DNA from: Flavobacterium aciduliphilum | GTDB taxonomy: Bacteria; Bacteroidota; Bacteroidia; Flavobacteriales; Flavobacteriaceae | Direction of reading: 5' to 3' | DNA length: 64,000 nt | Assembly: GCF_003268855.1 (NCBI RefSeq) | Contig: NZ_QLSZ01000005.1 | Location: 150,230 to 214,229 of the forward strand | Shown: one piece after another, positions 22,255-40,140 of the stretch | How positions within the stretch are numbered: the stretch's first letter is position 1 | Layout of the letters: each line of letters starts with the position of its first letter | Program-made: the position numbers and the translations under genes | Notes under the pieces: generated by a model | Seen by the model: the letters and a program-made list of their open reading frames with translations, nothing else | Told to the model about the DNA's origin: nothing | Databases searched by the model: none

Positions 22255-22973
22255 TTTTTGTGTTTTATCAAATAGCGCACCACTGTTTCTGCGGCATGCA
22301 ACCCAAAGAGACAGGGCATCCAACTATTGGTTCCGTAAAACGATTTTTTAAAATTGGTTCCATCAGTCATTTTTAAGCTGCTTTCGTCGGGACGCTCATA
22401 GGAATAAACTACTTTCACACCAGAGGAAATGCCTTCTTTCTTTAATCGTTTTCGAATGACTTTAGCCAACGGGCAATAGTCTGTTTTTCGGATATCGGTT
22501 ACTTTTACCTTGGAGGCTTCAAATTTTCCTCCTGCACCCATACTACTAATGACTTTGACCCCTTTTCGTTTCGCCGCTAGAATTAAGTTTAATTTTGGCG
22601 TAATGCTGTCTATACAATCAAAAACATAATCAAATTGTGGCGTGACCAATTCGAAAGCACGCTCGGGAGATAAAAACTCTTCGATTCGGGTTAAATGCAA
22701 TTCAGGATTAATATCCATGAGGCGATCGCCCACCACATGCACTTTTGGCATCCCTACAGTAGAATGTAACGCGGGTAATTGTCTATTGATGTTCGTGATG
22801 TCTACCACATCACCATCCACAATGGTCATGTTGCCCACTCCTGCACGAGCTAAAAACTCGGCTGCAAAAGACCCAACACCTCCTAATCCGACTACTAAAA
22901 CATTTGCTTTAGTTAAATTTTCTAACCCTTCTTCTTTAAAAAGAAGTGCCGCACGTTCTTGCCACTTTGCCAT
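22251..22973 (-). CDS. tcdA: tRNA threonylcarbamoyladenosine dehydratase
   Basis: A 240-residue E1/ThiF-fold protein. The ATP loop is VVGLGGVGSFAAEFLARAGVG, followed by DGDVVDITNINRQLPALHST and DCIDSITPKLNLILAAKRKGV. Length and the absence of extra catalytic domains fit TcdA (YgdL), which cyclises t6A37 in tRNAs to ct6A. MoeB/ThiF are less likely given the YSYERPDESSLK region and no molybdopterin or thiamine neighbours. It lies in a minus-strand run with a TatD-like hydrolase and a HAD phosphatase. tsaD, which acts earlier in t6A synthesis, is 11 kb away in this window. Confidence 0.9.
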   Translation of the reverse strand: MAKWQERAALLFKEEGLENLTKANVLVVGLGGVGSFAAEFLARAGVGNMTIVDGDVVDITNINRQLPALHSTVGMPKVHVVGDRLMDINPELHLTRIEEFLSPERAFELVTPQFDYVFDCIDSITPKLNLILAAKRKGVKVISSMGAGGKFEASKVKVTDIRKTDYCPLAKVIRKRLKKEGISSGVKVVYSYERPDESSLKMTDGTNFKKSFYGTNSWMPCLFGLHAAETVVRYLIKHKK

Positions 22974-22985
22974 GATTCTCTGTTT

Positions 22986-23645
22986 TTATTTTATTTGGTT
23001 CGTTTGGAACACTTGATTAAAATTATGTTGTATTTGATTTTGTATCACTGTCACCGATTGTTTTTTATAGCGTGCCGCTACCTCATAGACGGTTTCAATA
23101 GAGGCGCTGGTCGTATCGGTTTCTAAAAAAAATCGGTCGTTGGGCACCGCTTCAAATACCGCTTCCAATTCGGGATTTTGCAATAAATATTTCCCAAAAG
23201 AAAGGTAAAATCCCTGTTCTACTAACTGTTTTGCCAAGGGCTTGCTTTTTGAAAATCCATGAATAATCATCGGAACGGTGGGATTGTATTTCTTTTTTAC
23301 GTGCAATAATTCCTCAAAAGCGGCTACAATATGCAATACCAAAGGTTTTTGATGCTGTTCTGCCCATTGAAGATGTTGCTCAAAAACACGCAACTGCAGG
23401 TCAAAAGGTATCGAAATCCTTTTATCCAATCCGCATTCACCAAGCGCCAAACATTCGGGTTGCGTGAGTTGTTGTTCTATAATTCTCACATCTTCTGCCA
23501 TTCGAGCTTCATCGATATACCACGGATGAATGCCAATAGAATAGCAAGGCAAGGACGCGTCGAATTCCCAAGGATATTGATTGACCAATTCAACCACATG
23601 GGGTGTATTAGTGCCTTGATGCGTATGAAGATTGAAAAATTGCAT
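22986..23645 (-). CDS. TatD family metal-dependent hydrolase
   Basis: A 219-residue amidohydrolase-fold protein. The N-terminal metal motif is FNLHTHQG (HxH), then ALGECGLDKR (metal-bridging Glu), LVLHIVAAFEELL (His ligand), IIHGFSKSK and FFLETDTTSASIETVYE (last Asp). It is shorter than classic TatD (~260) and has Asn-Leu before HxH instead of Asp-x, as in a Bacteroidetes subgroup. The family includes 3'-5' DNA exonucleases. I used the ATG at 23645 rather than the TTG two codons upstream. The next gene starts 12 bp downstream. Confidence 0.88.
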   Translation of the reverse strand: MQFFNLHTHQGTNTPHVVELVNQYPWEFDASLPCYSIGIHPWYIDEARMAEDVRIIEQQLTQPECLALGECGLDKRISIPFDLQLRVFEQHLQWAEQHQKPLVLHIVAAFEELLHVKKKYNPTVPMIIHGFSKSKPLAKQLVEQGFYLSFGKYLLQNPELEAVFEAVPNDRFFLETDTTSASIETVYEVAARYKKQSVTVIQNQIQHNFNQVFQTNQIK

Positions 23646-23748
23646 CCGCAAAAATAATCGAAAACTTTTAAAGTGAAAAAAAGAAAAGATTCAAAAAAAC
23701 GGCTTTAAGTTTGTAGTTTTGTACTTTCTAAAGTCTCGAACCTCGTCC

Positions 23749-24975
23749 ATGCTAAAAAACGCCTTCCGCAAATACATCAACAATTTTAAAGGTTTTTCTA
23801 GAGAAATTTGGATTCTCACTTTCATTACCTTTATCAATCGTGCGGGAACGATGGTCTTGCCCTTTCTTTCAAAATATTTAAAAGAAGATTTACATTTTAC
23901 CTATGCACAAGTGGGTTGGATTATGGTATGTTTTGGGTCGGGCTCCATGATTGGGTCGTGGTTGGGAGGCAAACTCTCTGATAAAATTGGGTTTTACAAA
24001 ATCATGATTTTTAGTTTGTTTACGAGTGGATTGGCCTTTTTTGTACTGCAATTCATCACAACATTCTCTGCGTTGTGTATCAGTATTTTTATTCTGATGA
24101 TTATTGCCGATATGTTTCGTCCAGCTATGTTTGTTTCGCTCGGTGCCTATGCCCCTGCCGAAGATCGCACACGGGCGTTAACTTTGGTGCGTCTTGCCAT
24201 CAATCTAGGCTTTGCGGCGGGACCCGCTTTAGGAGGACTCATCATTATGAATGTTGGCTATAACGGGCTGTTTTGGGTAGATGGTGCTACGTGTATTCTC
24301 GCCATTTCTATTTTTGGCTTGACCGTAGCAAATAAAAATACAAACGTTGTGCCCCATGATGAAAAACAACGCTTGGATTCCAACAGACCTTCTGTGTTTA
24401 AAGACCTTCCGTTTTGGATTTTTCTATTTTGTTGTGTCATTACGGGTGTGCTTTTCTTTCAATTGTTTACAACCATTCCGTTGTATCATAAAGAACAATT
24501 TAATTTAACCGAATTTCAAACGGGCTTGTTGCTTACCCTCAATGGCGTTTTGGTTTTTTTCCTCGAAATGCCCATTGTGAGCTATGTAGAACGCAAAAAA
24601 ATAGACAAAGCCTTGATGGTTACTTTGGGGTGTTTGTTGATGGCGGTGAGTCTATTCTTGCTTCTCATTCATACCTGGACAGGCATTTTGCTGGTGATGA
24701 TGGTATGCATGACTTTTGCCGAAATGTTTTCGTTTCCCTTTTCCAATTCCTTTGCGATGAGTAGAGCCCCAAAAGGGCATGAAGGCCGCTATATGGCTAT
24801 TTTTACGATGAGTTATAGTTTGGCGCATATTATTAGTGCCAAACTGGGCATGTTTATTATTGACACACTAGGCTATCAAGCCAATTGGTTTTTTATGGGA
24901 TTACTAGGTTTGATAGGCGTTCTTTTGGGGTATTATGTGGTGTATTTGATTCGACAAGAGAAAAAAATAGCCTAA
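23749..24975 (+). CDS. MFS transporter
   Basis: A 408-residue protein with twelve predicted membrane segments. The MFS signature loop between helices 2 and 3 reads GSWLGGKLSDKIGFYKIM, and the helix 4-5 region has ALTLVRLAINLGFAAGPALGG. It is probably a drug or metabolite exporter of the DHA1 type; the substrate is unknown. I chose the ATG at 23749 (MLKNAFRKYINNFKGFSREIW); ten further codons upstream are open. Two -7-like boxes (TAAGTTTG at 23706 and TAGTTTTG at 23714) lie before it. Its last codons (QEKKIA-stop) are repeated at 28266, which marks the edge of the accessory island. Confidence 0.9.
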   Translation: MLKNAFRKYINNFKGFSREIWILTFITFINRAGTMVLPFLSKYLKEDLHFTYAQVGWIMVCFGSGSMIGSWLGGKLSDKIGFYKIMIFSLFTSGLAFFVLQFITTFSALCISIFILMIIADMFRPAMFVSLGAYAPAEDRTRALTLVRLAINLGFAAGPALGGLIIMNVGYNGLFWVDGATCILAISIFGLTVANKNTNVVPHDEKQRLDSNRPSVFKDLPFWIFLFCCVITGVLFFQLFTTIPLYHKEQFNLTEFQTGLLLTLNGVLVFFLEMPIVSYVERKKIDKALMVTLGCLLMAVSLFLLLIHTWTGILLVMMVCMTFAEMFSFPFSNSFAMSRAPKGHEGRYMAIFTMSYSLAHIISAKLGMFIIDTLGYQANWFFMGLLGLIGVLLGYYVVYLIRQEKKIA

Positions 24976-25053
24976 CCTTTCTACCCTTTTTTAAGACCAA
25001 CGCACCTTGACAGCGTGGTAACATTAGATTTCAGAGTTATAACTCTACTTTTT
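24957..25053 (+). repeat. Left copy of a ~97-bp direct repeat that includes the MFS 3' end
   Basis: The stretch from the last codons of the MFS gene (AGAGAAAAAAATAGCCTAAC) to ACTCTACTTTTT recurs at 28266-28360 with about ten differences, in the same orientation. A shorter echo, AGAGAATAGCCTAA, occurs at about 25395-25408. Confidence 0.8.
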
Positions 25054-25345
25054 AGAACTACATCTCTATTTTTCAGAACTACATCTCTACTTTTTAGAAC
25101 TATAACTCTACTTTTCAGAACTACAACTCTCCTTTTTAGATTTAAAAATTCTTTCACTCATGTTCTAGATTCCAGAACCCCTATTCTAGATTTCAGAACT
25201 CATGTTCTAGATTTCAGAACTCATGTTCTGGATTTCAGAGCTCATGTTTTAGATTTCAGAGCCCTTGCTATAGATTTCAGAACTCATGTTCTAGATTTCA
25301 GAACTCTTGTTCTGGATTTCAGAACTCATGTTCTGGATTTCAAGG
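25027..25345 (+). repeat. 21-bp tandem repeat (minisatellite), about 14 units in two subtypes
   Basis: Between the MFS gene and the next gene (24976-25556) there is no convincing coding sequence. Instead 21-bp units run head to tail. Five early units (25027-25131) have the core TTTTTAGAACTACATCTCTA; a 36-bp irregular unit (25132-25167) follows; then eight units (25168-25335) of the type GATTTCAGAAC + TCATGTTCTA or G, and a partial ninth. Many units contain AGAAC-TCAT-GTTCT, an inverted repeat with a 5-bp stem. Because 21 is divisible by 3 one frame stays open (repeating LDFRTHV), but there is no good start context and this is probably not a protein. The role is unknown. Confidence 0.85.
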
Positions 25346-25470
25346 CATACACTAGTAAATACTTCGTCAGAAATCTCTATCTCATTAAATCTTACAGAGA
25401 ATAGCCTAAAAAAGACACAGTTCATTTATAACTATACGTAAAATTTTCTATTTTTGGAATGAATAAAGCC

Positions 25471-25526
25471 TGACGTTTGTCAGACATATACACCCAAATA
25501 AGGGTCTGATTGTGTCAGACATATAA
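25471..25526 (+). other. Two adjacent hairpins sharing the motif TGTCAGACATATA
   Basis: CTGAC-GTTT-GTCAG (25471-25484) and GTCTGA-TTGTG-TCAGAC (25505-25521) are perfect inverted repeats. The 13-mer TGTCAGACATATA occurs at 25479-25491 and again at 25514-25526. They lie just before the first cassette edge (25532). They could be a terminator/operator pair or a recombination-related site; the sequence does not decide. Confidence 0.5.
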
Positions 25527-25556
25527 ACGAGTTACCAGCAATTATAAACACACCAT

Positions 25557-26348
25557 ATGAAATTACTTGACGAAAAAGAATTTAAAAGTTATATTGAAGA
25601 AAATTTTGAATCTATTTATAAAGATGTAGATGATTCTACAATTTCTCAACAAATTCCTGGCACTTGTGATTCTTGCTCAAGAGATGTTTTCTTGAAAATA
25701 TATTCTGAAACTTTCAACCAAGCATATTATAGTGACAATGGATTACCGAGATTTGTAAATATTTTCGTTGAATGTCCAAACTGTAGAAAAAAGAGTTTCA
25801 TTTTTGCTGTTCAATTTGTTGATGAAAAAAGAATTCCACATGTCACAGGTGGTAGTAGTTTAGTCTATAAATTTTCATTATATAGATTATATCGGTTACC
25901 TATTCAAAATGAAAATTACATAAACGAAGATATACCTGCAAAATATGACTCACTCAGAAAAACAGCAACAGAGGCTAGCTATTGTTTAACTAATTCAAAA
26001 TTTATTGCTTCTGCAATTTTATTTAGGAGAGCTATACAAATTCTAGCTAAAAGTGTCCTGGGTGCAAAAGGGAAAACTTTGTTTAATCAGTTGGAATGGT
26101 TAAAATCTAATCAAAATCTTCTAGCTATAGACCTAACGGAAATATTTCATGAGAATGCACAAATAATAAAAGACATTGGTAATCAAGGTGCACATCCCGA
26201 TGACGACATAACCCTACATGATTTTACAAAAGAAGACGCAAATGGACTTCATGATTTATTCATTTCTATTATACATGAAATTTTTGTTAAACCAGAAAAA
26301 ATGAAAGCATTACAAGAAGAACTAAAAAAGAACCGAAAGCTAAAATAA
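25557..26348 (+). CDS. DUF4145 domain protein with zinc-ribbon (cassette 1)
   Basis: A 263-residue protein without signal peptide. The N-terminal half has two Cys pairs, CDSC and CPNC, forming a probable zinc ribbon. The C-terminal half (YDSLRKTATEASYCLTNSKF, ILFRRAIQILAKSVLGAKGK, IKDIGNQGAHPDDDIT) matches DUF4145, a helical domain often seen in accessory loci and fused to restriction-type proteins; its function is not established. The gene starts 15 bp after the cassette edge at 25532 and ends one base before the opposite edge at 26350, so the unit consists almost entirely of this ORF. Confidence 0.8.
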   Translation: MKLLDEKEFKSYIEENFESIYKDVDDSTISQQIPGTCDSCSRDVFLKIYSETFNQAYYSDNGLPRFVNIFVECPNCRKKSFIFAVQFVDEKRIPHVTGGSSLVYKFSLYRLYRLPIQNENYINEDIPAKYDSLRKTATEASYCLTNSKFIASAILFRRAIQILAKSVLGAKGKTLFNQLEWLKSNQNLLAIDLTEIFHENAQIIKDIGNQGAHPDDDITLHDFTKEDANGLHDLFISIIHEIFVKPEKMKALQEELKKNRKLK

Positions 26349-26349
26349 C

Positions 26350-26529
26350 TGCTGGTAACAGCCGTTTGCACCAATGGCGTGGCTCGGGATTTATCAGAAT
26401 GCGGAAGTAATTATCTTTTTTCTTTCTATAGCGCTTTTTCTTTCTAACTTTTCGGTATATTTGTTATCGTCAGTGTGTGAAAATCGCCACTGGCGCAAGC
26501 GACAGGACGTTAGCGGTAAGTTAGCACCA
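26350..26529 (+). repeat. attC-like palindromic site between cassettes 1 and 2
   Basis: The spacer is gene-free and folds on itself. Outer arms are TGCTGGTAAC (26350-26359) and GTTAGC (26509-26514 or 26520-26525). Inner arms TTGCACCAATGGCG (26366-26379) and CGCCACTGGCGCAA (26485-26498) pair at 12 of 14 positions. A variable loop of ~105 bases lies between. TAACAGCCGT (26356-26365) and ACGTTAGC (26507-26514) recur exactly in the next site. Two GTTAGC copies 11 bp apart at the right edge leave the exact junction ambiguous. Confidence 0.6.
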
Positions 26530-26547
26530 ATTTTAAACTCACATTAA

Positions 26548-27036
26548 ATGAGACAAATTCTTTTCCTATTCACATTCTTTCTATTTTGGAGTTGTGATAC
26601 TAAAAAGTATCCGTTAGATATGCCAAATGACTTTGCAATTAAAATAGATTTTGGCCATCAAAAATATAATTCAAAAACTGGAATTCTTACAAGGGAATTT
26701 ATGAGAAGTCCTGATAAGCATATTAGAATAAATCTGACTGTTGAACAGAAAATGGAAATTTATGACTATTATAAAAAAGTAGATTTTTTATCTTTCCCTT
26801 CAGAATTTGAATGTGACACATTAAAACCTGGTGGAGTTATTCCATGCTATGATTTTGAAATAGAAATAACATCAAATAAAATTGTCAAAAGTTCAAGAAC
26901 AAGTGATTATTGTCAAAATAAAATCGAAAAAGAAAAAGAGAAGAAATTAATTGTATTAGAACATATGATTTTGAAAATCATCGAAAATGATGAAGGATAT
27001 AAAAAAATGCCTGATAGTGACTATATAAGTTTATAA
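26548..27036 (+). CDS. Small lipoprotein of unknown function (cassette 2)
   Basis: A 162-residue protein with a short hydrophobic leader ending in the lipobox-like FLFWSC (Cys16), so it is probably exported and lipid-anchored. The mature part has no domain I recognise; it contains a Cys pair (FECDTLKPGGVIPCYDF) that could form a disulfide and a basic C-terminal helix (CQNKIEKEKEKKLIVLEH). It stands alone between two attC-like sites, 18 bp after the GTTAGCACCA edge and 5 bp before TGGTGCTAAC, which is the compact form typical of a gene cassette. Confidence 0.75.
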   Translation: MRQILFLFTFFLFWSCDTKKYPLDMPNDFAIKIDFGHQKYNSKTGILTREFMRSPDKHIRINLTVEQKMEIYDYYKKVDFLSFPSEFECDTLKPGGVIPCYDFEIEITSNKIVKSSRTSDYCQNKIEKEKEKKLIVLEHMILKIIENDEGYKKMPDSDYISL

Positions 27037-27041
27037 AAAAC

Positions 27042-27180
27042 TGGTGCTAACAGCCGTGTCTCGCAATTGCGAATTTTGTGGTAAGTTCACGTTTACGTTT
27101 CGCAAGAATTTTTATCTTTAACAGAAAATAATTCGTTCCGAAGTTCGCAACTGACGCCAAGCGTGGAAACGTTAGCAGTA
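27042..27180 (+). repeat. attC-like palindromic site between cassettes 2 and 3
   Basis: Outer arms TGGTGCTAAC (27042-27051) and GTTAGCAGTA (27171-27180) share GCTAAC/GTTAGC. Inner arms TTGCGAA (27067-27073) and TTCGCAA (27144-27150) pair perfectly, with further partial pairing (GCCGTG with AAGCGTGG region). It shares TAACAGCCGT and ACGTTAGC exactly with the preceding site while the loop sequence differs, as attC sites do. Confidence 0.6.
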
Positions 27181-27197
27181 ATTGTCAATCAAGATTC

Positions 27198-27644
27198 ATG
27201 AGAAAAAAACATTTAATATTGACGTTTGTATTTTCTCTCTCTTTTTTCTCTTGTGGAAATGGAGAATTCGAACAATTTTATGCCAATTACGAAGACTTTA
27301 AAAAGATACCAAATAAGAGACTTACGGGTTGGTTTCCTGAAATTATAACTCGTGATAGCTATGAAATCAAAAATTCGTCTCATTTGGATATTTGTGCATT
27401 CTGTTCAATAAAATACAGAAATAAAAAAAGTATAGATTCTATATTTAGTATTTACAAATCAGTTCCTGTTTCAAACTTTAAAATAGTTTTAGAAAAATAT
27501 TCCGAGAAAACTCCAGAGTGGTTTCCGAATATAGATTCCGAAAGAAAATTTTATAATGTAATAAAACTTAATAATCACGTTTGGGCCTTAAGAGAGAAAA
27601 ATAAAAAACAAGTGTTTACAATTTCTTTGCTAATGAATGAATAG
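27198..27644 (+). CDS. Small lipoprotein of unknown function (cassette 3)
   Basis: A 148-residue protein; the leader MRKKHLILTFVFSLSFFSC ends in a lipobox-like FFSC, so lipid anchoring after export is likely. The mature part is Lys/Tyr/Phe-rich with two Cys in DICAFCSIKY. I do not recognise a domain. It begins 17 bp after the GTTAGCAGTA edge and stops 4 bp before TACTGCCAAC. Like cassette 2 it carries an exported protein, so surface functions may be what this array supplies, but this rests on two genes. Confidence 0.75.
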   Translation: MRKKHLILTFVFSLSFFSCGNGEFEQFYANYEDFKKIPNKRLTGWFPEIITRDSYEIKNSSHLDICAFCSIKYRNKKSIDSIFSIYKSVPVSNFKIVLEKYSEKTPEWFPNIDSERKFYNVIKLNNHVWALREKNKKQVFTISLLMNE

Positions 27645-27666
27645 CAACTACTGCCAACATCGGTTA

Positions 27667-27843
27667 CTATTTAGTAAACTCTCATTTCAGCGTGGACATG
27701 AAGGGTTTGTTTCGTTTATTGCTAAAACACAATTAATTGAACATTACAAAAAATCATTAGGAGCTATAAATTTTGGAGGGCAGTTAATGATTATTAACAA
27801 TAAAGCAGCATTAAGTTTAATTGGTAAATATTTTAAAAATTAG
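27667..27843 (+). pseudogene. 3' remnant of an acetyltransferase-like gene
   Basis: A frame ending at TAG 27841-27843 reads RGHEGFVSFIAKTQLIEHYK then KSLGAINFGGQLMIINN and ALSLIGKYFKN. This looks like the last ~50 residues of the GNAT-like proteins that precede MGLIKEP-type small genes in Bacteroidetes. No acetyl-CoA-binding part lies upstream: the frame runs straight back into the 3' edge of cassette 3. It is therefore a truncated copy joined to the array end. The family call is from memory of such pairs and is only moderately sure. Confidence 0.5.
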
Positions 27844-27847
27844 TAAA

Positions 27848-28015
27848 ATGGGATTAATTAAAGAACCTTTAAACATAGATTTTGTAGTTGAAAACAGACC
27901 ACTAACAAAGGAAGAAGAAAAACAAATTAGTGAATATATAATTTCTCAAAAAAAGAAAAGAGAATCAAAAAACAACACTAATTCTAGAATTTCAAAAACT
28001 AAACAAAAAGTATAA
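27848..28015 (+). CDS. Small charged protein (MGLIKEP type), partner of the truncated upstream gene
   Basis: A 55-residue protein starting MGLIKEPLNIDFVVENRPLT and ending in a Lys/Asn-rich tail. Similar small proteins follow GNAT-like genes in other Bacteroidetes, as recalled. The ATG at 27848 is 4 bp after the stop of the upstream remnant; an earlier in-frame ATG lies within that remnant. It could be an antitoxin-like or accessory subunit left without its partner. No fold can be assigned. Confidence 0.55.
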   Translation: MGLIKEPLNIDFVVENRPLTKEEEKQISEYIISQKKKRESKNNTNSRISKTKQKV

Positions 28016-28265
28016 ATGTACTTCTGTTAATAGCTAGGATTCGTTGGGCTTGCAAAAAACCATAAATAAAACGAATGAGGTAAACCCCAGCTCCTCAAAT
28101 ATCTCCTGAGTTTTCGTAATTTTTTATACAAGATTACCCCTATAGTATGCTTCAATATACGTTGATGGCAAAGAAATTGTTGAAGTAGAAATAGTTCAAA
28201 TTCTAATTGTAAATGTTATGAATCTTAAATTCAATTTTAAAATATAGTAGTTGTGGTAAATAACT

Positions 28266-28383
28266 AGAGAAAAAATAGTCTAACCTTTCTACACCTTTTT
28301 AAAACCAACGCACCATGACTGCGAGGTAACACTAGATTTCAGAGTTACAACTCTACTTTTCAGATTTAGAATTCTTTCACTCA
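28266..28383 (+). repeat. Right copy of the MFS-3'-end direct repeat
   Basis: 28266-28360 matches 24957-25053 (about 89 percent by eye), including the MFS stop-codon region. 28361-28383 (CAGATTTAGAATTCTTTCACTCA) continues as a match to about 25137-25160, skipping the early tandem units. It therefore carries only one and a half 21-bp-type units and looks like the unexpanded form. Confidence 0.75.
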
Positions 28384-28466
28384 AAATTTTGCATGTAGGT
28401 ACCGTTTCACAGATAAACAGAACTTGGGCTGGTTTGTCGTAAGAAACCCAAAAGTAAACCTTACAA

Positions 28467-28498
28467 TTTGGATTTATTTTTTGACTTTTTTAAATTTG
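28467..28498 (+). promoter_or_regulatory. Promoter of the SRPBCC gene
   Basis: TTTG (28467-28470), 20-bp spacer, TAAATTTG (28491-28498): a full match to the Bacteroidetes TTTG/TAnnTTTG pattern, 25 bp before the ATG at 28524. Confidence 0.6.
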
Positions 28499-28523
28499 AC
28501 TATTCGATTTTAATTGAAACACT

Positions 28524-28994
28524 ATGGCATTTTATCAATTTACACAAACACAAAAGATACCTGCAACTATTGATGCTGTGTGGGACTTTATATCAAATCC
28601 AGCAAACTTAAAGGATATTACACCAAGCTATATGGGTTTTAAAGTAACAAGCAATAGCGGAAGCAACAAAATGTATGCAGGAATGATTATTACTTACATC
28701 GTGAAACCAGTATTTGGCATCCCTATGAAATGGATGACCGAAATAAGCCATGTAAAAGATAAAGAATACTTTGTAGACGAACAACGCATGGGACCCTACA
28801 AACTGTGGCATCATCAACATAAAATAACGGTTATTGATGGTGGCGTTTTAATGACTGATATTGTTACTTATATTCCACCCTTTGGAATTATTGGGGCGTT
28901 AGCAAATGCTCTTTTTATTAAAAACCAACTTAAAAAAATCTTTGAATTCAGAACAAAAGCTGTTGAAGAAAAATTCGGTGTGTTTAAACCCTAA
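28524..28994 (+). CDS. SRPBCC-fold (START/polyketide-cyclase-like) protein
   Basis: A 156-residue cytoplasmic protein. The opening YQFTQTQKIPATIDAVWDFI followed by NPANLKDITPSYMGFKV is the typical start of SRPBCC proteins, which form a helix-grip cavity for hydrophobic ligands. WMTEISHVKDKEYFVDEQRM and MTDIVTYIPPFGIIG continue the fold, and the C-terminal helix FEFRTKAVEEKFG closes it. The ligand is unknown. It stands alone just outside the island's right edge with its own promoter and is probably part of the conserved chromosome. Confidence 0.85.
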   Translation: MAFYQFTQTQKIPATIDAVWDFISNPANLKDITPSYMGFKVTSNSGSNKMYAGMIITYIVKPVFGIPMKWMTEISHVKDKEYFVDEQRMGPYKLWHHQHKITVIDGGVLMTDIVTYIPPFGIIGALANALFIKNQLKKIFEFRTKAVEEKFGVFKP

Positions 28995-29129
28995 AAATTA
29001 ACATTTAGCTTTGCGATATGATACATGTTGTAATCTATACGATTGTCAGTTCTGTATTTTACGCTAAAGTTTTAAGTCAAATTAGGTAGGAACGTAAATG
29101 TATTTTATGTTCAATAGACAAGGTAGTCG

Positions 29130-32100
29130 CTACTTTTTTTTATTGTTTTCTATTTCAATATAAGCAGGGAGCATCTCTTGTTTTTCGGGTTGTGGCGGAT
29201 CTTTAGGAACTCTATCGATGATTATTTTTTTCTTAAATATTTTGTTGACTAATTCCTTGAACGTATCAAAATCTACTTCATAAGAAAGTCCTGCACCTTG
29301 GGTGTAGCCAATTCCTTGTCCGATGTAATTGATATCGTTTTCTCTATTAAAAACCCTCAAATTTAATGTCCCATCTTCGTTAACACGATATTGCAATTCG
29401 AAATTTCCCACTACAGCCGTTTCTGAAACCCCCCCAGTAGGAACACCTACTTTTCCATTTATACTAATTCTATCGCTAATAACGGTCGATACCGTGGCGA
29501 CAACTCGACCCGTTTCTGTTGGGTTTACCGTATTTTTATTAGTGGCAGAATACGTTACATCGACATTAATTTTATCGCCTTCTCCATTAAATAAATCCCT
29601 GAAAAGCCCACTCGCTTTTTCATAGAAACTGTTGGTAACTTGTGACTGACTCAATCCTTCTGGACTTAAAAATCCTCCTGTAGAAAGCAAATATAACGCT
29701 TGCTTTTGTCGAGTATCACTATCGGCTAATTTGGTCTCAATTTCCGAGCGGAGCACCGAACTAACATTAGGAAAATTGATGTTAAAATCGGGTTCTGGAT
29801 TTAATATTGTTCCCTTCAATCCGATGACCACTTCTACGGGAATAATTTTGTTAAAGGAAGCATTGTCTACCAATACAGCTGGATTTGCCATAATATTTTT
29901 AGATACTGCTTCTAGATTGAGCGTAGCATTGTAGGGATTTCCAGACCAAGAAATATAGCCAAATTTTTTAACATCAAATTTTTTATCAATAAGTCCCCCG
30001 TATTTAAAGTTATAGGACCCTTCCCAAACAGTAAAGTCCCCAAACATCTCAAACTTTCCAAGGGTATTGATATTCATGTTTAACGTTCCTTTTCCTTTTC
30101 CTCGCATACCATGTCCCGATTCTCGGTTGAGGATGACTTCAATATTGGCATTCGTTTCAATATCAAAATCAAAATTCATTTGAAGTCCGTTGTAGTTTCG
30201 AATAAATTCAACTTCTTTCTTTTTAATTCCTAGTTTTTCTTCTCGAGTTAGAAAGTGTATGTAGTCGTTGTCGCTTACCGCTTCGGCATCATTTATGGGG
30301 ATTTTAATATCAGTCCCTTTGGAAGATTTGGCTTTTACATTAATCTCTAACGCATTTGTGGGGCCTTTGATTGTAGCATTTCCCTCTATAAAAGCGGTTC
30401 CAAAGTAAGCTACATCTTCATGATCTTTGGTGTCTAAAGCTAAAATTCTATCGGAGTCAATGGCTAAATCGAGTTCCCAATCGCCAAATTGCTTGTGTTT
30501 TACAAAACCTTGAATACTTCCCTCGGTATTAAATTTTGTATCGTTTACCTTTGATTTATAAATGATAAACTTATTCTGTGTTACGTCAACAATGGAGTGC
30601 TGAGCAACTTTATAATCTACATTCAAATAGGGAATTGTGACTCCAGCATCGTCTACAAACAAGCGTCCTTTATAATCGATATCATTAACATCTCCACTCA
30701 AATTGGCATTTCCAGATACATTCCCTCGAATGTTGGATAAAACGGTGCCTCCAAACTTACTTAAAACACCTAAGTTGAATTTCTGGAAATTTAAATCCAA
30801 GTCAATTAATGTTGCATCATTTACTATTTCAAGGTTTCCGTTGGCGGTAAAGGATTTTATATTTTCATTTTCAATTTGAGAAGAAATTGCAAAATTTGAA
30901 AAATCATTATTCCCTTTAATATCCAAATTCATAGTCCCTAACACATTGTCATTCACATAAAAATTATTTATGTTGAGGGCTGCTGTAGGCTGATAGACCG
31001 CATTATTTTGTTTCAAATAGGCATTCCCATTTAATTTTCCTTCAAAACGGAATTGATTGATTTCTGGGGTAATTTTGTTCAAATTTACATCATGAAAGGT
31101 AACCTGAATGTCTTTATTTTTGGTTCCGTTTACAGTCCCTTTCAATAAAATAGATTGATTTTCGTGCGAAAGCATCACATCTTCAAAGGTAAACTGCTTG
31201 AAATCTTTATCAAAAACGACTTTGTTTTTTTCGTTTTCTTCTTTATTAATGTACCATAAATAGTCTTTAAACATCACTTCAGATTGATTAAAACCAATGA
31301 TATTGTGATTGTTTTTATCTAAAGTATGATACAGGTTTAAATTATAATAATCGTTGCCCGAAACTCCGCCTTTAAATTCTGTTCTAAAAGATAAAGTATC
31401 TCGTGCCGTAGCGTTAATCAAGGAAAAATCCCTGAATTTATAGTATTTTGTTTTTATACTATCCATTTGTACGTAGGTATTGTACAAAGGGTTTTTATTA
31501 TCTATTTCAAGCGCTACTTTATCAAAATGCACTTGATAAGCATCGATTGTTTTGGCGTTAAAGTTAAGTTTGAAATTGTTATTGTCTGCATATATGATTC
31601 CATCGAGAGTAGCACCATCATCTAGTGTAATTTGCGGATATAGAATTTCTATGATTTCGCTAAACTTAGAAAAATCAAATTTCATATACTGTCCTTTTTT
31701 AAGAAGTATTGGTTTGTAATTAGTATATAAACTACCTAGTGAATTTTCAATCATCCCGGGAATTTGATTGAAATCGAATTTTCCTTTTATAAATCCTTTC
31801 AATTGATTGGGCGATGCCATCGTAATGGTTCGCTCTTGGTTGGCATCAAAAGTTGATTGCACCCGTAAATCATCAAAAAAATAAATATCCTTACTGTTTT
31901 GATAGGAAGCATTGCTTAGATGTGCTTCCCCTACAGCATTATTTAGGCTTGTTCCTGTTATATTTAAAACCACATCACCCTTAAAAACAGCTATTTCATC
32001 ATTTACAAAATGCAACTTACTTAGATTTGCATAATCGGTTTTAGCGTGAAAACTATAGATGTTTTCCTTTTTACTTAAATCGATTACTCCATCAAAGTCT

Positions 32101-33605
32101 AGAAATAAATTAGGGTCATTGCAATTTACTTTACCCTTAAAAATGGGTTTTTTAAAACTCCCATCGGCAATAATATTTTGATAGGAATAGGAATTATAAT
32201 CCAATCGAGAAATAGTTCCTGAGAACTTTGTATCGAGGTATTTTTCTACAAATCCCTTACCGTCTACATCCATATTCATTGATACTTTACCAATTGTTTT
32301 TCTATTGATTAAAGTACCCACATCAAAGGCATCAAAAACTACATTTCCTTTATATTCCGCATTGTCAATATTGTCAATATGCACCATACTCAAATTGGAT
32401 ATGATGGTGCCCAATGCGGTGTGAAGTGTGAAATCGGTATTGATTTTCTGAGTCGTCACTTCAATATCCCCAGCAAAAGTAAATTGACCGAGTTTTTTTA
32501 ATGATGAGGGTAGTTTTTTCCCCAACACATTGGGTAATAATTTAGAAAGGTTCTCATAATTGGAAGTGACTTTACGAAACGACCCTTTCATAAAAAACGT
32601 GCCTTGATTCTTTCTAGCAAATAAATTTCTAAAGTTTACATTCCCTGCAATAATCGATTTTTTATCATCAATAAGAAGTAAATGTTTAGCATAAAAATTA
32701 TTTAATGTTCCGTCTATTTTCCCTTTAAGGGTAAAATATTTGTTTCTGCCTATTTCTTTATAAAAATACCAAACATCATTAGACGCTATTTTGGCATGGC
32801 GTGTGGTTACATCAAAAAGCACTTTGTTATTAAAATCTCTAAAATCTTTTCGATCATATCGTAAAATTACCTTTCCCGAAAAACTCGACTCAGCGGTTTT
32901 TAAATCGAGTTGTTCCAAACGTATGTTCTTTTTTGTGTAGGTAAATTGCGATTTTAAATGAGTTACAAAAACCCCACGATGGTCAAGAAAAGACATATCG
33001 TTTATATTGAAATAAACATTAGGCCCTTTGATTCTAAAACGATTAATCTCGGCATCAATTTTAGTAAAATCAACATCTAAAGGCACCTCGCGATTGTAAT
33101 CTATTTCTCTAAAACGACAAGATTGTAGCAAAATCTTATTGGTAATCATCCTGAATTTTCCTGAAGCCGGTTTGCCGTCATCAAATGCCGCAACGAATTT
33201 GTCTAAATTAGTATCAACATCTCCTTTGTAGGTTTTGACATTCACAAATAAGTCATTGGCTCGAATGGTTCCAAAAAACAATTTCCCATCAATCAGTTTT
33301 TTTGCATCAATAATGTTGGTATTGATTCTTTTAGAAAAAATTAAGGTGTCTTTTTTCTCATCTTTAATCAATACTTTTTTGAGTTGTACGCCTCCAAAAA
33401 TATTGATTTCCACTTCATCAACCTCTATATGAACGCCAAATTGCTTATTTAAATCTGCCGTGACGTAGTGCGCTATTTTGGTTTGTACAAAAGGAAGCGA
33501 TAGGATAATACCCAAGAAAACAAGAAGCAAGAACAAAAACAAGAACGTGCGCCACACAATCTTTTTGATCCTCTTCAAACGGGTATTTTCTTTTTTTTCT
33601 TTCAA
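29130..33605 (-). CDS. tamB: Translocation/assembly module protein TamB (DUF490)
   Basis: A 1491-residue protein, one of the largest here. An N-terminal membrane anchor (IVWRTFLFLFLLLVFLGIIL) is followed by AsmA-like text (VQTKIAHYVTADLNKQFGVH, IFGGVQLKKVLIKDEKKDTL) and a very long beta-rich body of repeating strands. The C-terminal DUF490 region is clear (KIPINDAEAVSDND, GTLNMNINTLGKFEMFGDF, WEGSYNFKYGGLIDKKFDVK, SWSGNPYNATLNLEAVSKNI). TamB-type proteins bridge the periplasm and move phospholipid or assist outer-membrane insertion. It is divergent from tsaD. Confidence 0.93.
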   Translation of the reverse strand: MKEKKENTRLKRIKKIVWRTFLFLFLLLVFLGIILSLPFVQTKIAHYVTADLNKQFGVHIEVDEVEINIFGGVQLKKVLIKDEKKDTLIFSKRINTNIIDAKKLIDGKLFFGTIRANDLFVNVKTYKGDVDTNLDKFVAAFDDGKPASGKFRMITNKILLQSCRFREIDYNREVPLDVDFTKIDAEINRFRIKGPNVYFNINDMSFLDHRGVFVTHLKSQFTYTKKNIRLEQLDLKTAESSFSGKVILRYDRKDFRDFNNKVLFDVTTRHAKIASNDVWYFYKEIGRNKYFTLKGKIDGTLNNFYAKHLLLIDDKKSIIAGNVNFRNLFARKNQGTFFMKGSFRKVTSNYENLSKLLPNVLGKKLPSSLKKLGQFTFAGDIEVTTQKINTDFTLHTALGTIISNLSMVHIDNIDNAEYKGNVVFDAFDVGTLINRKTIGKVSMNMDVDGKGFVEKYLDTKFSGTISRLDYNSYSYQNIIADGSFKKPIFKGKVNCNDPNLFLDFDGVIDLSKKENIYSFHAKTDYANLSKLHFVNDEIAVFKGDVVLNITGTSLNNAVGEAHLSNASYQNSKDIYFFDDLRVQSTFDANQERTITMASPNQLKGFIKGKFDFNQIPGMIENSLGSLYTNYKPILLKKGQYMKFDFSKFSEIIEILYPQITLDDGATLDGIIYADNNNFKLNFNAKTIDAYQVHFDKVALEIDNKNPLYNTYVQMDSIKTKYYKFRDFSLINATARDTLSFRTEFKGGVSGNDYYNLNLYHTLDKNNHNIIGFNQSEVMFKDYLWYINKEENEKNKVVFDKDFKQFTFEDVMLSHENQSILLKGTVNGTKNKDIQVTFHDVNLNKITPEINQFRFEGKLNGNAYLKQNNAVYQPTAALNINNFYVNDNVLGTMNLDIKGNNDFSNFAISSQIENENIKSFTANGNLEIVNDATLIDLDLNFQKFNLGVLSKFGGTVLSNIRGNVSGNANLSGDVNDIDYKGRLFVDDAGVTIPYLNVDYKVAQHSIVDVTQNKFIIYKSKVNDTKFNTEGSIQGFVKHKQFGDWELDLAIDSDRILALDTKDHEDVAYFGTAFIEGNATIKGPTNALEINVKAKSSKGTDIKIPINDAEAVSDNDYIHFLTREEKLGIKKKEVEFIRNYNGLQMNFDFDIETNANIEVILNRESGHGMRGKGKGTLNMNINTLGKFEMFGDFTVWEGSYNFKYGGLIDKKFDVKKFGYISWSGNPYNATLNLEAVSKNIMANPAVLVDNASFNKIIPVEVVIGLKGTILNPEPDFNINFPNVSSVLRSEIETKLADSDTRQKQALYLLSTGGFLSPEGLSQSQVTNSFYEKASGLFRDLFNGEGDKINVDVTYSATNKNTVNPTETGRVVATVSTVISDRISINGKVGVPTGGVSETAVVGNFELQYRVNEDGTLNLRVFNRENDINYIGQGIGYTQGAGLSYEVDFDTFKELVNKIFKKKIIIDRVPKDPPQPEKQEMLPAYIEIENNKKK

Positions 33606-33714
33606 TTTTATTCAGGGCTATCGATAAGAACCTTTAAAATAATTACCTTTGTAATCGTTGTAAAAATAATCGTTTTATAGCGGTTTATCAAATATTATTC
33701 AAAAAATATGCCTC

Positions 33715-34737
33715 ATGAAACCCCATGATGTTTACATTCTTGCGATTGAAAGTTCTTGCGATGACACCGCAGCCGCGATATTAAAGAACAACACGGTATT
33801 GTCAAATGTGGTGGCAGGTCAAAAGATACACGAAGAATACGGAGGCGTTGTCCCCGAGTTGGCGTCACGTGCTCATCAGCAAAACATAGTTCCAGTGGTT
33901 GATGCAGTACTTAAACAAGCGAAAATAACGCTACAAGAACTCCATGCTGTTGCTTTTACTCAAGGTCCCGGATTGATGGGGTCGCTACTAGTGGGCACTT
34001 CCTTTGCAAAATCGTTAGCCTTAGCCCTAGGAATTCCTTTGCTTGCTGTGAATCACATGCATGCCCACATTTTAGCCCATTTTATCAAAGAAGAAGGATT
34101 TGACCAGCCTGAATTTCCCTTCTTAGCCTTAACTATTTCTGGTGGACATACCCAAATTGTGAAAGTAACTGGTTTTTTTGACATGGAAATTATTGGTGAA
34201 ACCACAGACGATGCTGTTGGCGAAGCCTTCGATAAATCGGCAAAAATTTTAGGTCTACCCTATCCAGGTGGTCCACTCATTGATAAATTGGCAAAAGAAG
34301 GCAATCCTAAAGCCTTTCATTTTACCAAACCTAAAGTAGACGGATTGAATTTTAGTTTTTCAGGGCTCAAAACCCAAATTTTATATTTCATCCAGAAACA
34401 AACAGCCGTAAATCCCGAATTTATTGAAACTTATAAAGCCGACATTTGTGCCTCCATTCAGCATACTATTATTGAAATTCTAATGGAAAAAATCAAATTG
34501 GCTGTCCAAGAAACTGGCATTACACAAATTGCTATTGGAGGAGGTGTATCGGCTAATTCAGGCATTCGGGCGGCATTAAAAGCAACTGAATCAAAATATG
34601 GATGGAAAACCTTTATTCCAAAGTTTGAATACACAACCGACAATGCTGCTATGATTGGGATTGTAGGATATCAAAAATATAAAGAGCAACAATTTAACGA
34701 TGCAACCGTCGCATCAAAAGCAAGAATCGCGTTTTAA
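33715..34737 (+). CDS. tsaD: tRNA N6-adenosine threonylcarbamoyltransferase
   Basis: A 340-residue protein of normal TsaD (Kae1/Gcp) length, catalysing transfer of threonylcarbamoyl to A37 of ANN-decoding tRNAs. Metal-binding His residues are in NHMHAHILAH (H114, H118). The ATP-binding ASKHA core shows LAIESSCDDTAAAIL, FTQGPGLMGSLLVG, LTISGGHTQIVKV, AVGEAFDKSAKILGLPYPGG and IGGGVSANSGIRAAL, and the last Asp motif is TTDNAAMIG. It overlaps none of its neighbours and is followed 2 bp later by rsmE. A TACCTTTG -7-like box lies at 33644-33651. Confidence 0.97.
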   Translation: MKPHDVYILAIESSCDDTAAAILKNNTVLSNVVAGQKIHEEYGGVVPELASRAHQQNIVPVVDAVLKQAKITLQELHAVAFTQGPGLMGSLLVGTSFAKSLALALGIPLLAVNHMHAHILAHFIKEEGFDQPEFPFLALTISGGHTQIVKVTGFFDMEIIGETTDDAVGEAFDKSAKILGLPYPGGPLIDKLAKEGNPKAFHFTKPKVDGLNFSFSGLKTQILYFIQKQTAVNPEFIETYKADICASIQHTIIEILMEKIKLAVQETGITQIAIGGGVSANSGIRAALKATESKYGWKTFIPKFEYTTDNAAMIGIVGYQKYKEQQFNDATVASKARIAF

Positions 34738-34739
34738 TT

Positions 34740-35447
34740 ATGCAATTGTTTTACAACCCAACGATTTCAGAACACCAAAATTCATTTGTTTTTGACAAAG
34801 ACGAAAGCAAACATATTATTAAAGTTTTACGAAAAAAAGAAGGCGATATTTTATATGTTACTAACGGTTTAGGTAAGCTATTTACTACGGAAATCATTTT
34901 GGCATCTGACTCAAAGTGTACGGTTAAAATTAACGATACTACGACGCAAGAAGCTCCAAAATATCGACTGCATATTGCTGTGGCTCCAACAAAAATGAAC
35001 GAGCGTCTGGAATGGTTTTTAGAAAAAGCTACTGAAATTGGGATTCAAGAAATCACGCCTATTATTTGTGAGCATTCCGAACGAAAAGTGATTAAAATTG
35101 AACGCTTCGAAAAAATCATCGAATCGGCCATGAAACAATCGCTACATTCCTTTTTACCCAAAATACATGCGCCTGTTTCTTTTAAAGATTTTATTAAAAA
35201 AATACATGCTGGGCAGAAATTTATTGCTCATTGCGAAGATACGCCTAAAAACAGCCTTAAAACCCGTCTCGAATTAGGAAAAGATGTATTAATTTTAATA
35301 GGGCCAGAAGGTGATTTTTCTGTTAAAGAAATTGAAATGGCCTTGCAACATGATTTTATTCCTGTATCTTTGGGAGAGACTAGACTCAGAACCGAAACAG
35401 CTGCCCTAGTAGCCTGTCATAGTGTTGTATTATTAAATGAATCATAA
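34740..35447 (+). CDS. rsmE: 16S rRNA (uracil1498-N3)-methyltransferase
   Basis: A 235-residue SPOUT-fold methyltransferase of RsmE length. The C-terminal knot carries LIGPEGDFSVKEIEMAL and VSLGETRLRTETAALVACH, the SAM-binding motifs. The N-terminal PUA-like domain shows FDKDESKHIIKVLRKKEGD. It methylates U1498 of 16S rRNA. It starts two bases after the tsaD stop, so both tRNA and rRNA modification genes share a transcript. Confidence 0.95.
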   Translation: MQLFYNPTISEHQNSFVFDKDESKHIIKVLRKKEGDILYVTNGLGKLFTTEIILASDSKCTVKINDTTTQEAPKYRLHIAVAPTKMNERLEWFLEKATEIGIQEITPIICEHSERKVIKIERFEKIIESAMKQSLHSFLPKIHAPVSFKDFIKKIHAGQKFIAHCEDTPKNSLKTRLELGKDVLILIGPEGDFSVKEIEMALQHDFIPVSLGETRLRTETAALVACHSVVLLNES

Positions 35448-35448
35448 C

Positions 35449-36636
35449 ATGAAAAAAATCATACTTTTATTTTGTTTTTTGGTATGTGTTTGGGGTAATG
35501 CGCAAAATCAAACTCTATTTTTAGATAAAAACTATCAAGAGGTTTTACGAGAAGCTCAACAATCTAACAAGCCCATTGCTTTGATGTTTTATGCTACATG
35601 GTGTCAACATTGCAAAAAAATGAAAAATGAGGTTTTCACGGATGCTGATGTTGCAACCTACTATAGTTCTCATTTCGTTTGTATGGCTATTGATAGTGAA
35701 TCGAAAGACGGTACGCAACTAAAAGAATACTTTCAAAAAAAATTTAATGTAAAATATTATCCTACTATTGCATATTTAGATGCTCATGAGAATTTACTGA
35801 ACTGCATTTCGGGTGAGTTTAAAAAAGAAGATTTTATAAAAGAAGGGCTACTAGCCTTAACTCCCGAAACTCAATTTGGCACCATTAAAAACGAATTTTA
35901 CAAAGACGTAAGTCAGGGAGAAAATTGTTTGCGTTACATCGTTTTTGCACGAAAAGCAGGATTGGACGCAACTAGCATTGCCCAAACGTATCTAAAAACC
36001 AAAAAAGAAGACGATTATTTTACCGAATTGAATTGGAAAATAATGGCTAATGGTATTAACAATATTGAAGCTAAAGAAGTATCTTTTATCAATTTGCACA
36101 AAGAGGATTTTGCTAAAGTATCGTCTCCGATTCGAGTGGAAAAAAAGCTTGTGTTTCTAGCATCCGATAATTTGAGACCTTTAGCCGAGCTTACCGATAC
36201 CCTTAATTATTTTAGAATCAGACCTATTGCTGCTGCTTTTCATATACGAAAAGTTGATTCGTTACTATTTAAGTTTGATTTAACGATTTGTGCCAATGCC
36301 AAAAACTGGAAAAAATATCAAAAATACGCAGAAACATCTGTATCTGATTTTGCTTGGAAAGATTCCAATACTTTAATTCAAATAGCAACCGATTTCAAGG
36401 ATTTTATTGCTGAACCTAAAGCATTAGAACTTGCCATTTCATGGACACAACAAGCGATAACACTTGGCCCTGCTATGAACAAATATGTTTTACTTACACA
36501 ATTGTATATGAAAACAAAAGCCTATACTAAAGCTCTTGAGAGTGCAGAACAAGGTAAAAGTATCGCAACTTCTTTTGGCTGGAAGACAGACGAAATTGAC
36601 CGACTCATAACAGAAATTAAAACCAAAAAGAAATGA
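35449..36636 (+). CDS. Secreted thioredoxin-fold protein
   Basis: A 395-residue protein with signal peptide MKKIILLFCFLVCVWGNAQ. A thioredoxin-like domain covers ~20-140: IALMFYATWCQHCKKMKNEVF gives the redox pair CQHC, followed by FVCMAIDSESKDGTQLKEYF and YYPTIAYLDAHENLL (cis-Pro). The rest is helical with TPR-like pieces (AISWTQQAITLGPAMNKYV). Periplasmic, probably a disulfide reductase or oxidase with an unknown partner. I prefer the ATG at 35449 to the one at 35437 because it gives a clean leader. It overlaps the next gene's start. Confidence 0.85.
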   Translation: MKKIILLFCFLVCVWGNAQNQTLFLDKNYQEVLREAQQSNKPIALMFYATWCQHCKKMKNEVFTDADVATYYSSHFVCMAIDSESKDGTQLKEYFQKKFNVKYYPTIAYLDAHENLLNCISGEFKKEDFIKEGLLALTPETQFGTIKNEFYKDVSQGENCLRYIVFARKAGLDATSIAQTYLKTKKEDDYFTELNWKIMANGINNIEAKEVSFINLHKEDFAKVSSPIRVEKKLVFLASDNLRPLAELTDTLNYFRIRPIAAAFHIRKVDSLLFKFDLTICANAKNWKKYQKYAETSVSDFAWKDSNTLIQIATDFKDFIAEPKALELAISWTQQAITLGPAMNKYVLLTQLYMKTKAYTKALESAEQGKSIATSFGWKTDEIDRLITEIKTKKK

Positions 36637-37280
36637 TGAAACGCTTTACAATTGCTGCCCTATTATTTTTCTGTTTTTCAGTGGGCTTTTCACAACAAAT
36701 CGCACTATTGAAATATAATGGCGGGGGTGATTGGTATGCCAATCCTACCTCGTTGCCTAATTTGATTAAATTTTGCAATCAAAATTCAAATATGACGCTT
36801 TCATCAAAACCAGCTACGGTTGAACCAGGAAGCCCCGATATTTTTTCTTATCCTTATGTACATGCTACGGGTCATGGGAATATTCTTTTTAGTGATGCTG
36901 AAATTTTAAATCTTCGCAATTATATGCTTTCAGGAGGCTTTATGCATTTTGATGACAATTATGGAATGGATGAGTATTTGAGACGTGAAGTGAAACGTAT
37001 TTTTCCTACTGAAAATTTGGTCGAAATCCCTGCCAATCACCCTATATTTCAAAAACCGTATGTTTTTCCAAGTGGTTTGCCTAAGATTCACGAACATGAC
37101 GGCAAAAGACCTCAAGCTTTTGGAATTTTTATCGAAAATCGGTTGGTGTTTTTATACACTTACGAATGTGATTTAGGAGACGGTTGGGAAGATGCCGAAG
37201 TACACAACGATCCTAAAGAAGTACGAGAAAAAGCTTTGAAAATGGGAGCAAACATTTTGTACTATATTTTTACCAATTAA
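36636..37280 (+). CDS. DUF4159 domain secreted protein
   Basis: A 214-residue protein with signal peptide MKRFTIAALLFFCFSVGFSQ. The mature region (ALLKYNGGGDWYANPTSLPN, YPYVHATGHGNILFSDAEIL, LRNYMLSGGFMHFDDNYGMD) matches DUF4159, a glutamine-amidotransferase-like fold seen in export-related Bacteroidetes proteins. No catalytic Cys is seen at the usual place, so an enzymatic role is uncertain. Two ATGs in tandem (36633 and 36636) overlap the stop of the preceding gene; I use the second. The stop overlaps the next gene's ATG. Confidence 0.82.
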   Translation: MKRFTIAALLFFCFSVGFSQQIALLKYNGGGDWYANPTSLPNLIKFCNQNSNMTLSSKPATVEPGSPDIFSYPYVHATGHGNILFSDAEILNLRNYMLSGGFMHFDDNYGMDEYLRREVKRIFPTENLVEIPANHPIFQKPYVFPSGLPKIHEHDGKRPQAFGIFIENRLVFLYTYECDLGDGWEDAEVHNDPKEVREKALKMGANILYYIFTN

Positions 37281-39567: not shown

Positions 39568-39576
39568 AATGTTTCT

Positions 39577-40140
39577 ATGAAAAAGATTTTTTGTTTTCTT
39601 TTCTTACTGAATTCTCTGTGTTTTTGGGCTCAAACAGATTGTGATTATGCTGTGAATACCAAAGACAGTTTGGGCATCTATAAAGCCACGCAAGACTATG
39701 TTGTACACGAACGTATTTTTGGAAATACGCAAACTTCAATTTTCTTTTCTTTGATTAATGCCGATGGGGTTTTGTCTTTAAATTTTCAATTGTTGCAAAA
39801 AAGTAAAGATTTTGTTCCCGCTCATTGTTTCGATAAAAATTCTAAAATTTATTTGCAACTTAATAACGGTAAAATTGTAACTTTAGTTGGAATTAGTCAA
39901 GAAAGTTGCGGCAACAATTTAAGAACCAATGAGGGCAACAATCGTTTATTAACAGGTTATTTTCTTTTTAAAAAAGACACGTTCGAACATTTAAAAAACT
40001 GTCCCATCACGATGATTCGAGTACTTTACTCAGGAGAACAAATAGACTATGTTATGAAAGACACTCTTGTTTCAGAAGTTGATAAAAAAACATACCATCC
40101 TGATCATTTCTTTATGGATTATCTCAAATGTGTAGAGTGA
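39577..40140 (+). CDS. Secreted protein of unknown function
   Basis: A 187-residue protein with signal peptide MKKIFCFLFLLNSLCFWAQ. The mature part begins TDCDYAVNTKDSLGIYK and contains a run FFSLINADGVLSLNFQLL and a Cys in SCGNNLRTNEGNNR. I do not recognise a domain. It lies 9 bp after the methyltransferase gene and its last 22 bases overlap the convergent dipeptidase gene. Confidence 0.75.
   Translation: MKKIFCFLFLLNSLCFWAQTDCDYAVNTKDSLGIYKATQDYVVHERIFGNTQTSIFFSLINADGVLSLNFQLLQKSKDFVPAHCFDKNSKIYLQLNNGKIVTLVGISQESCGNNLRTNEGNNRLLTGYFLFKKDTFEHLKNCPITMIRVLYSGEQIDYVMKDTLVSEVDKKTYHPDHFFMDYLKCVE

Follow-up and report, generated by a model that had tools for sequence, protein, structure and literature searches.

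The stretch from 25480 to 27708 of the window, by which we mean the whole 64,000-nucleotide piece of DNA analyzed here, appears to be a satellite array of gene cassettes lying behind an orphan attI-like site, and its cassettes are likely moved by a tyrosine recombinase of non-IntI type encoded on another contig of the genome, C10. We give this reading a probability of roughly 0.8. As judged from sequence comparisons, an integron-like cassette system is widespread in Flavobacterium and its relatives, and the recombinase that works it is likely to be a different one from the known integron integrase; the system appears to work like an integron but fails the defining IntI test. The integron-like cassette array proposed in a preliminary description of this DNA is supported by copies of the sites, by the recombinase at the main array, and by cassettes that are shared with breakpoints at GTT.

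The window array consists of three units in tandem (25531-26359, 26520-27051, and 27171-27658), all of which begin with GTTA. Their ends had been described as paired; the pairing is present in the sequence and is longer than first claimed, with 14 of 15 nt matching in unit 1 (GTTACCAGCAATTAT / GTTACCAGCAGTTAT) and in unit 2 (GTTAGCACCAATTTT / GTTAGCACCAGTTTT), and 12 of 15, read by eye, in unit 3. Position 11 is mismatched, A against G, in all three. One point had to be corrected: the units had been taken to end at the inverse core AAC, whereas cassettes 1 and 2 continue past it, via a hairpin, to the following GTT. With these edges, cassette 1 spans 25531-26519 on the plus strand, as do all the features that follow; its gene (25557-26348) encodes a 263-aa protein with a DUF4145 domain and a weak match to the PADLOC model PD-T7-4, and its attC-like site (26350-26517) has the order R'' TAAC, L'', L', R' GTTA. 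Cassette 2 (26520-27170) holds a gene for 162 aa (26548-27036) and an attC-like site (27042-27179) with near copies in many genomes of the genus. Cassette 3 runs from 27171 to a presumed right edge at 27708 and holds a gene for 148 aa (27198-27644); neither this gene nor that of cassette 2 has a family match. The 3' site of cassette 3 (27656 to about 27708) has no match to R1, our covariance model of these sites, and is either short or decayed. The cassette start is doubled between units 1 and 2, at the 3' edge of cassette 1, with GTT at 26509 and at 26520; 26509-26529 reads GTTAGCGGTAA followed by GTTAGCACCA, possibly a trace left by an imprecise event or by the loss of a cassette. We took 26520 as the true start of cassette 2 because the homologous cassette in another species (genome G158) begins there.

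Just upstream of the first cassette lies the attI-like site (25480-25530), with half-sites TCAGAC at 25480-25485 (direct), GTCTGA at 25504-25509 (inverted), and TCAGAC at 25515-25520 (direct); ATATAAACGA fills the stretch from the third half-site to cassette 1. No recombinase similarity or remnant was found in the 64-kb window by tblastn at E<=0.1. A direct repeat of 117 nt, 83% identical, stands on both sides of the attI/cassette block (24962-25078 and 28270-28386) and includes the last part of the transporter gene upstream; it may be a sign of the way in which the block arrived. Between the transporter gene and the attI-like site, at 25037-25345, there are also repeats of about 21 nt (GATTTCAGAACTCATGTTCTA and variants). 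Among 30 fetched loci compared in search of an empty version of the window locus, none had an MFS-gene match beside the SRPBCC gene.

That the ends match within a unit and differ between units, as first described for the window, is a general property of these cassettes. We compared ends in 271 cassettes from 21 arrays (of 278 cassettes, the G179 array being left out), with position 11 unscored; at least 12 of the 14 scored positions match between a cassette's own ends in 227 of the 271, but in only 1517 of the 73,170 cross-pairings between different cassettes. All 227 self-matching cassettes have A at position 11 of the 5' end, and in none of them does this A have a complementary partner (A/G in 213, A/C in 12, A/T in 2); the usual opposition is A.C on the top strand and T.G on the bottom strand. 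The R box of these 227 cassettes departs from the classical GTTRRRY, with T (44%) or C (12%) at position 5 and C (39%) at position 6, which bears out the earlier suggestion of a distinct attC family. The IntI arrays of this phylum do not have A/G among their most frequent position-11 pairs, a hint drawn from a set in which the two strands, and chance pairs as well, are mixed. Taken singly, exact inverted pairs of 10 nt (GTT...AAC) do not exceed chance in the window: there are six, compared to a mean of 5.0 in 40 shuffles of dinucleotide blocks and 14 in the reversed window. Our case does not, therefore, rest on such isolated pairs; what goes beyond chance is the tandem order with hairpins and the recurrence of the same pattern in many other cassettes.

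In each attC-like site, a pair of complementary arms, between which a spacer is left unpaired, links the inverse core AAC to the core GTT. R1 was seeded with 11 sites, nine of them from relatives and the other two from the window; the seed leaves out two candidates (L011 and L017) that we judged to be chance matches lacking arms. Site 1 scores 84.9 bits (E 1e-18) and site 2 scores 144.8 bits (E 6e-34) against this model, which was built partly from these same two sites. In the R1 alignment, 90.7% of cells are paired, compared to 24-49% when the partners are slid by 1-3 columns, and both sides have changed in 6 of 19 pairs. When the window sites are folded freely as single strands, the structures obtained are mixed. 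Of 258 distinct sites, 250 allowed an alignment of the inner arms; among these, the L' (3') arm has unpartnered bases in 115 and the L'' (5') arm in 47, there mostly at the far end.

The prediction that the same ends would be found elsewhere in the genome and in relatives was correct. Contig C10 of the same genome carries 11 R1 sites (22556-36882), and 174 of the 199 genus genomes have R1 matches (E<=0.01, scoring up to 16 candidates in each), as do, at E<=1e-4, 81 of 149 genomes of the class, representing 60 of 99 genera. The largest arrays in the stretches that we fetched have 55 sites (G134), 43 (G163), 28 (G060 and G148), and 24 (G082). The 281 cassettes measured have a median length of 740 nt. 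Their longest ORF lies on the array strand in 257 and on the other strand in 16, and it is shorter than 50 aa in the remaining 8.

In the reading that we favor, the attC-like site would fold as a single strand. The helix between the cassette ends would run for 10 bp, be interrupted by A facing C (on the bottom strand, a T.G wobble), and continue for another 4 bp; beyond an unpaired spacer, the inner arms would make up a second helix. By joining G|TT in the folded site to attI or to a further attC, the recombinase would insert, remove, or reorder cassettes, and the fixed mismatch at position 11 may help in distinguishing the strands. The array in the window probably arose at an attI that later lost its recombinase gene, and if so it could now be served only in trans. 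The sequences themselves show the anatomy, the distribution, the matching of ends, the breakpoints, and the absence of the IntI insert. Catalysis by this recombinase, its action on folded single strands, strand choice through position 11, and the loss of a recombinase gene from the window are the parts of the model that we infer.

Folding would be unneeded if the same recombinase acted on double-stranded DNA, with the hairpin arms serving as no more than a pair of inverted core sites. Fewer than half of the sites have an extra base in the arms, which, like the mixed structures from free folding of the window sites, counts against folding on one strand. There is no unpartnered base in the 3' arm of 135 of 250 sites or in the 5' arm of 203, and the best structural match of the recombinase is XerA-like rather than IntI alone. 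The ends of a cassette, however, match each other and not those of neighboring cassettes, over 15 nt with a fixed unpaired position. A folded site explains this match, whereas two double-stranded cores do not require it. The spacers are also unequal (1-3 versus 5-7 nt). We regard action on double-stranded DNA as improbable, with odds of a little less than one in ten.

The integrase missing from the window had been expected elsewhere, and of an IntI type. The first part of this expectation held and the second did not. Just before the C10 sites, on the same strand, a gene at 39168-40205 encodes a 345-aa tyrosine recombinase; the first C10 cassette begins about 120 nt after its stop codon, with ends that match at only 11 of 15 positions. 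This platform is flanked by genes for a phosphofructokinase and a pseudouridine synthase, and its cassettes carry two restriction systems, one HaeII-like and one type IIG-like, the latter divided between two frames, as well as a helicase. The helicase, in the stretch 22556-40205 of C10 (L115, L116), matches the PADLOC model PDC-S68.

Relatives of this recombinase are found at E<=1e-60 in 99 of the 199 genomes of the genus. R1 sites occur in 71 of the 73 genomes with a full-type recombinase (E<=1e-100), versus 103 of the 126 others (Fisher p 0.0014); sites and recombinase are thus often apart, as they are in the window. At 19 of 30 recombinase loci in the genus there is a same-strand R1 site within 1.5 kb downstream, and several of the other 11 lie near a contig end. 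More distant relatives, 38-44% identical, head arrays in G088, G154, and G066 (L284-L286), and in G165 (L290) an array stands behind a broken copy; another seven (L287-L289, L291-L294) have no array in the 14-15 kb downstream. These seven, together with the array-bearing genomes that lack a full-type recombinase, count against our explanation.

In a wider set, a matching end pair begins 20-300 nt after the recombinase at 50 of 127 loci, compared to 25 of 586 control windows; the 50 include Seonamhaeicola, Winogradskyella, Rufibacter, and Cyclobacterium, and also two IntI loci (L274, L281) and two that lack the position-11 A/G (L202, L214). A model of the recombinase family, A7, finds members in 116 of 395 genomes of the phylum at E<=1e-60, not all of which need be cassette recombinases. 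Two complete Chryseobacterium plasmids, NZ_CP041688.1 (L320) and NZ_CP094530.1 (L321), encode a recombinase 62% identical to the recombinase protein P0002 and have a similar attI block. R1 sites and matching end pairs follow it on the first plasmid, and neither was found on the second. The first plasmid also repeats a short palindromic unit, GTTGGGAAAAATCGC. Among phage records we found 12 distant integrases, none covering 80% of the query. Cassette-like end pairs were seen near recombinase relatives on contigs labelled as other phyla (L160, L161) and upstream of one on a contig labelled Firmicutes (L175, 611-4467); in the latter the control also gives pairs, making these weak evidence of cassettes.

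By sequence and structure comparison, the recombinase lacks the insert that defines IntI and forms a clade apart from the IntI proteins compared. Three recombinase proteins score 204-209 bits against the integron integrase model TIGR02249, each in two stretches and all under its cut-off of 265. P0002 aligns to residues 6-179 and 242-318 of the integron integrase structure 2A3V and skips 180-241. In a tree of 119 rows, in which the bootstrap had not settled, the 43 rows nearest A7 form one group (99/98) and 10 IntI proteins of the phylum another (100/100).

These comparisons also bear on whether the arrays belong to an ordinary IntI integron that is missing its integrase, a plain CALIN, with the recombinase at the main arrays a bystander. 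The window array does resemble a CALIN in having attC-like sites and no recombinase gene within 64 kb, and canonical IntI does exist elsewhere in the phylum: 105 of 395 genomes have a protein over the cut-off, which also serves as the positive control for our search of the genus. Not one of the 199 genus genomes does, however, and we rejected canonical IntI as the recombinase of the genus; the 108 phylum genomes listed in the IntI search include one of the same class and none of the same order, family, or genus. Moreover, a recombinase and an attI-like block head the arrays in many genomes, the attC ends differ from GTTRRRY, and, unlike a CALIN, the window array has an attI-like site of its own and is related to main arrays headed by a non-IntI recombinase. 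We consider a plain CALIN very improbable.

It seems slightly less probable still that the host XerC/XerD, or some other recombinase, carries out the exchange and that the gene heading the arrays is not the catalyst. The genome has other tyrosine recombinases, and arrays without the array-heading gene are common. All three recombinase proteins scanned fall far below the cut-offs for both XerC and XerD. They do pass the cut-off of 220 of the model NF040815 (220.9-226.1 bits), and XerA (5HXY) is the best match in the PDB; they differ from XerA-like recombinases in an extra N-terminal domain and in adjoining attI and arrays. NCBI names NF040815 'site-specific tyrosine recombinase/integron integrase', and part of the system may therefore already be known to annotators. 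Against a role for Xer, the array-heading recombinase steadily adjoins attI in a fixed orientation, and the attI half-sites differ from genome to genome, as expected of a private recombinase and not of a conserved Xer.

At 22 of 23 loci, a distance of 92-122 nt separates the recombinase stop codon from the start of the first cassette, and the block before this cassette ends in TATANACNA or close to it. The block contains 5-nt half-sites, direct, inverted, and direct. Half-sites within one site match at 4.17 of 5 positions in both comparisons, versus 2.86 and 3.16 of 5 between sites with different half-sites; 12 different half-sites occur among the 23 attI-like sites, the window included, in a count that leaves out L072 because its first detected cassette is not at the attI-like block. 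The half-sites thus covary within sites. The window site has a perfect set (CAGAC) with the recombinase absent. The C10 attI of the same genome fits the half-site pattern poorly, and this, together with the 11 of 15 matches in the ends of the first C10 cassette, counts against our explanation.

The extra N-terminal domain of the recombinase is about 70 aa long, with invariant W38, S39, and W45, and these 70 aa match no Pfam family at the usual cut-off. DUF5710 weakly matches 4 of 31 members (best E 0.00096), with the position within the protein not given. For a model of this domain, the top Foldseek match is the HARP domain of SMARCAL1 (4O66; E 0.6, probability 0.54), which is not significant, and 4O66 is not among the 50 VIA-align matches listed. 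HARP binds forked DNA. We lean, with some reserve, towards regarding the whole as a second kind of integron: one that captures genes through folded DNA with its own recombinase lineage, has a HARP-like N-terminus in place of the IntI insert, a 15-nt R arm with a strand-marking mismatch, and a co-evolving attI, and serves as the main capture system of Bacteroidia, with arrays of at least 50 cassettes, defense cargo, and a presence on plasmids.

The likeness to IntI chromosomal integrons such as the Vibrio cholerae superintegron is extensive. Both have a tyrosine recombinase adjoining an attI-like site; tandem one-gene cassettes, mostly in one orientation, with accessory and defense cargo; and attC-like sites with R and L arms, an unpaired spacer, and a boundary at G|TT. 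The recombinase here differs in lacking the IntI insert and in having the extra N-terminal domain, and the R arm differs in matching over 15 nt with a fixed unpaired position 11. The extra bases differ as well: according to the portion of PMC2727003 that we drew on, the extrahelical bases of IntI sites are by definition on the R''-L'' arm, whereas here they are mostly on L'. Archaeal integrons, as described in part of PMC9668308, likewise have attI directly downstream of the integrase gene and tandem arrays, but their integrases have the IntI-specific domain that is absent here. A survey of complete genomes, in the section used here, reports one complete integron in Bacteroidetes, that of Salinibacter ruber, and calls the absence of integrons from some large clades intriguing (PMC9024848). 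Since the arrays described here are often headed by a recombinase without the IntI-recognition domain, an IntI-based search would miss them. In the excerpts of open-access papers that we consulted, we found no description of such arrays or of the recombinase as a cassette recombinase, and the excerpts of PMC8352920, PMC8618304, PMC5458099, and PMC2426708 gave no lead on such arrays. If the recombinase acts on folded sites, single-strand cassette recombination would have been solved in a second way; what the IntI insert does, and what extrahelical bases do, would become testable by comparison, and a large unread store of cassette genes, restriction systems included, would open.

Cassettes have also been copied and shared. 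Within the arrays of G134, G060, G148, G163, and G105, some cassettes at separate positions are 98-100% identical to each other. Identity extends from GTT to GTT in the clearest example (G060, 1230 nt, 100%), and in other duplicates it also covers some of the conserved hairpin before the start. Between species, 26520-27174 of the window (unit 2) is 93% identical to the G158 cassette, and both flanks are unrelated. The breakpoints predicted at G|TTA are thus seen in duplicated and cross-species cassettes alike, which break at GTT. Unit 1 (25532-26360) has a counterpart in G750 that is 78% identical to it but differs in its flanks and its hairpin and has a decayed start. Least probable of the ideas that we considered is that the hairpins are merely terminators or palindromic repeats, immobile and lying between small genes that are unrelated; their position between genes and the chance level of single 10-nt end pairs in the window would lend this some color. 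It is contradicted by the 227 of 271 cassettes with matching ends and by the cassette shared with G158. Cassette copies that break at GTT, the attI and recombinase at one end of arrays, and the lack of any Rfam family at the gathering threshold in four stretches (L053, L284, L115, L116) from two array genomes and a third also speak against it. Two weak matches to known RNA families in the window region are far under the gathering scores.

Some sites stand outside the arrays or depart from the common type. On contig C1 of the same genome (G000), away from both of its arrays, there are lone R1 matches at 558688-558825 (plus strand, 57.9 bits) and 316711-316842 (minus strand, 28.8 bits), possibly single scattered cassettes. 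A second hairpin type (AACATCATGTTGACGCAAGCGGGG ... CCCCGC-type arm ... GTTA) ends some cassettes in G016 (L019, L018), one of which has a toxin-antitoxin-like gene pair.
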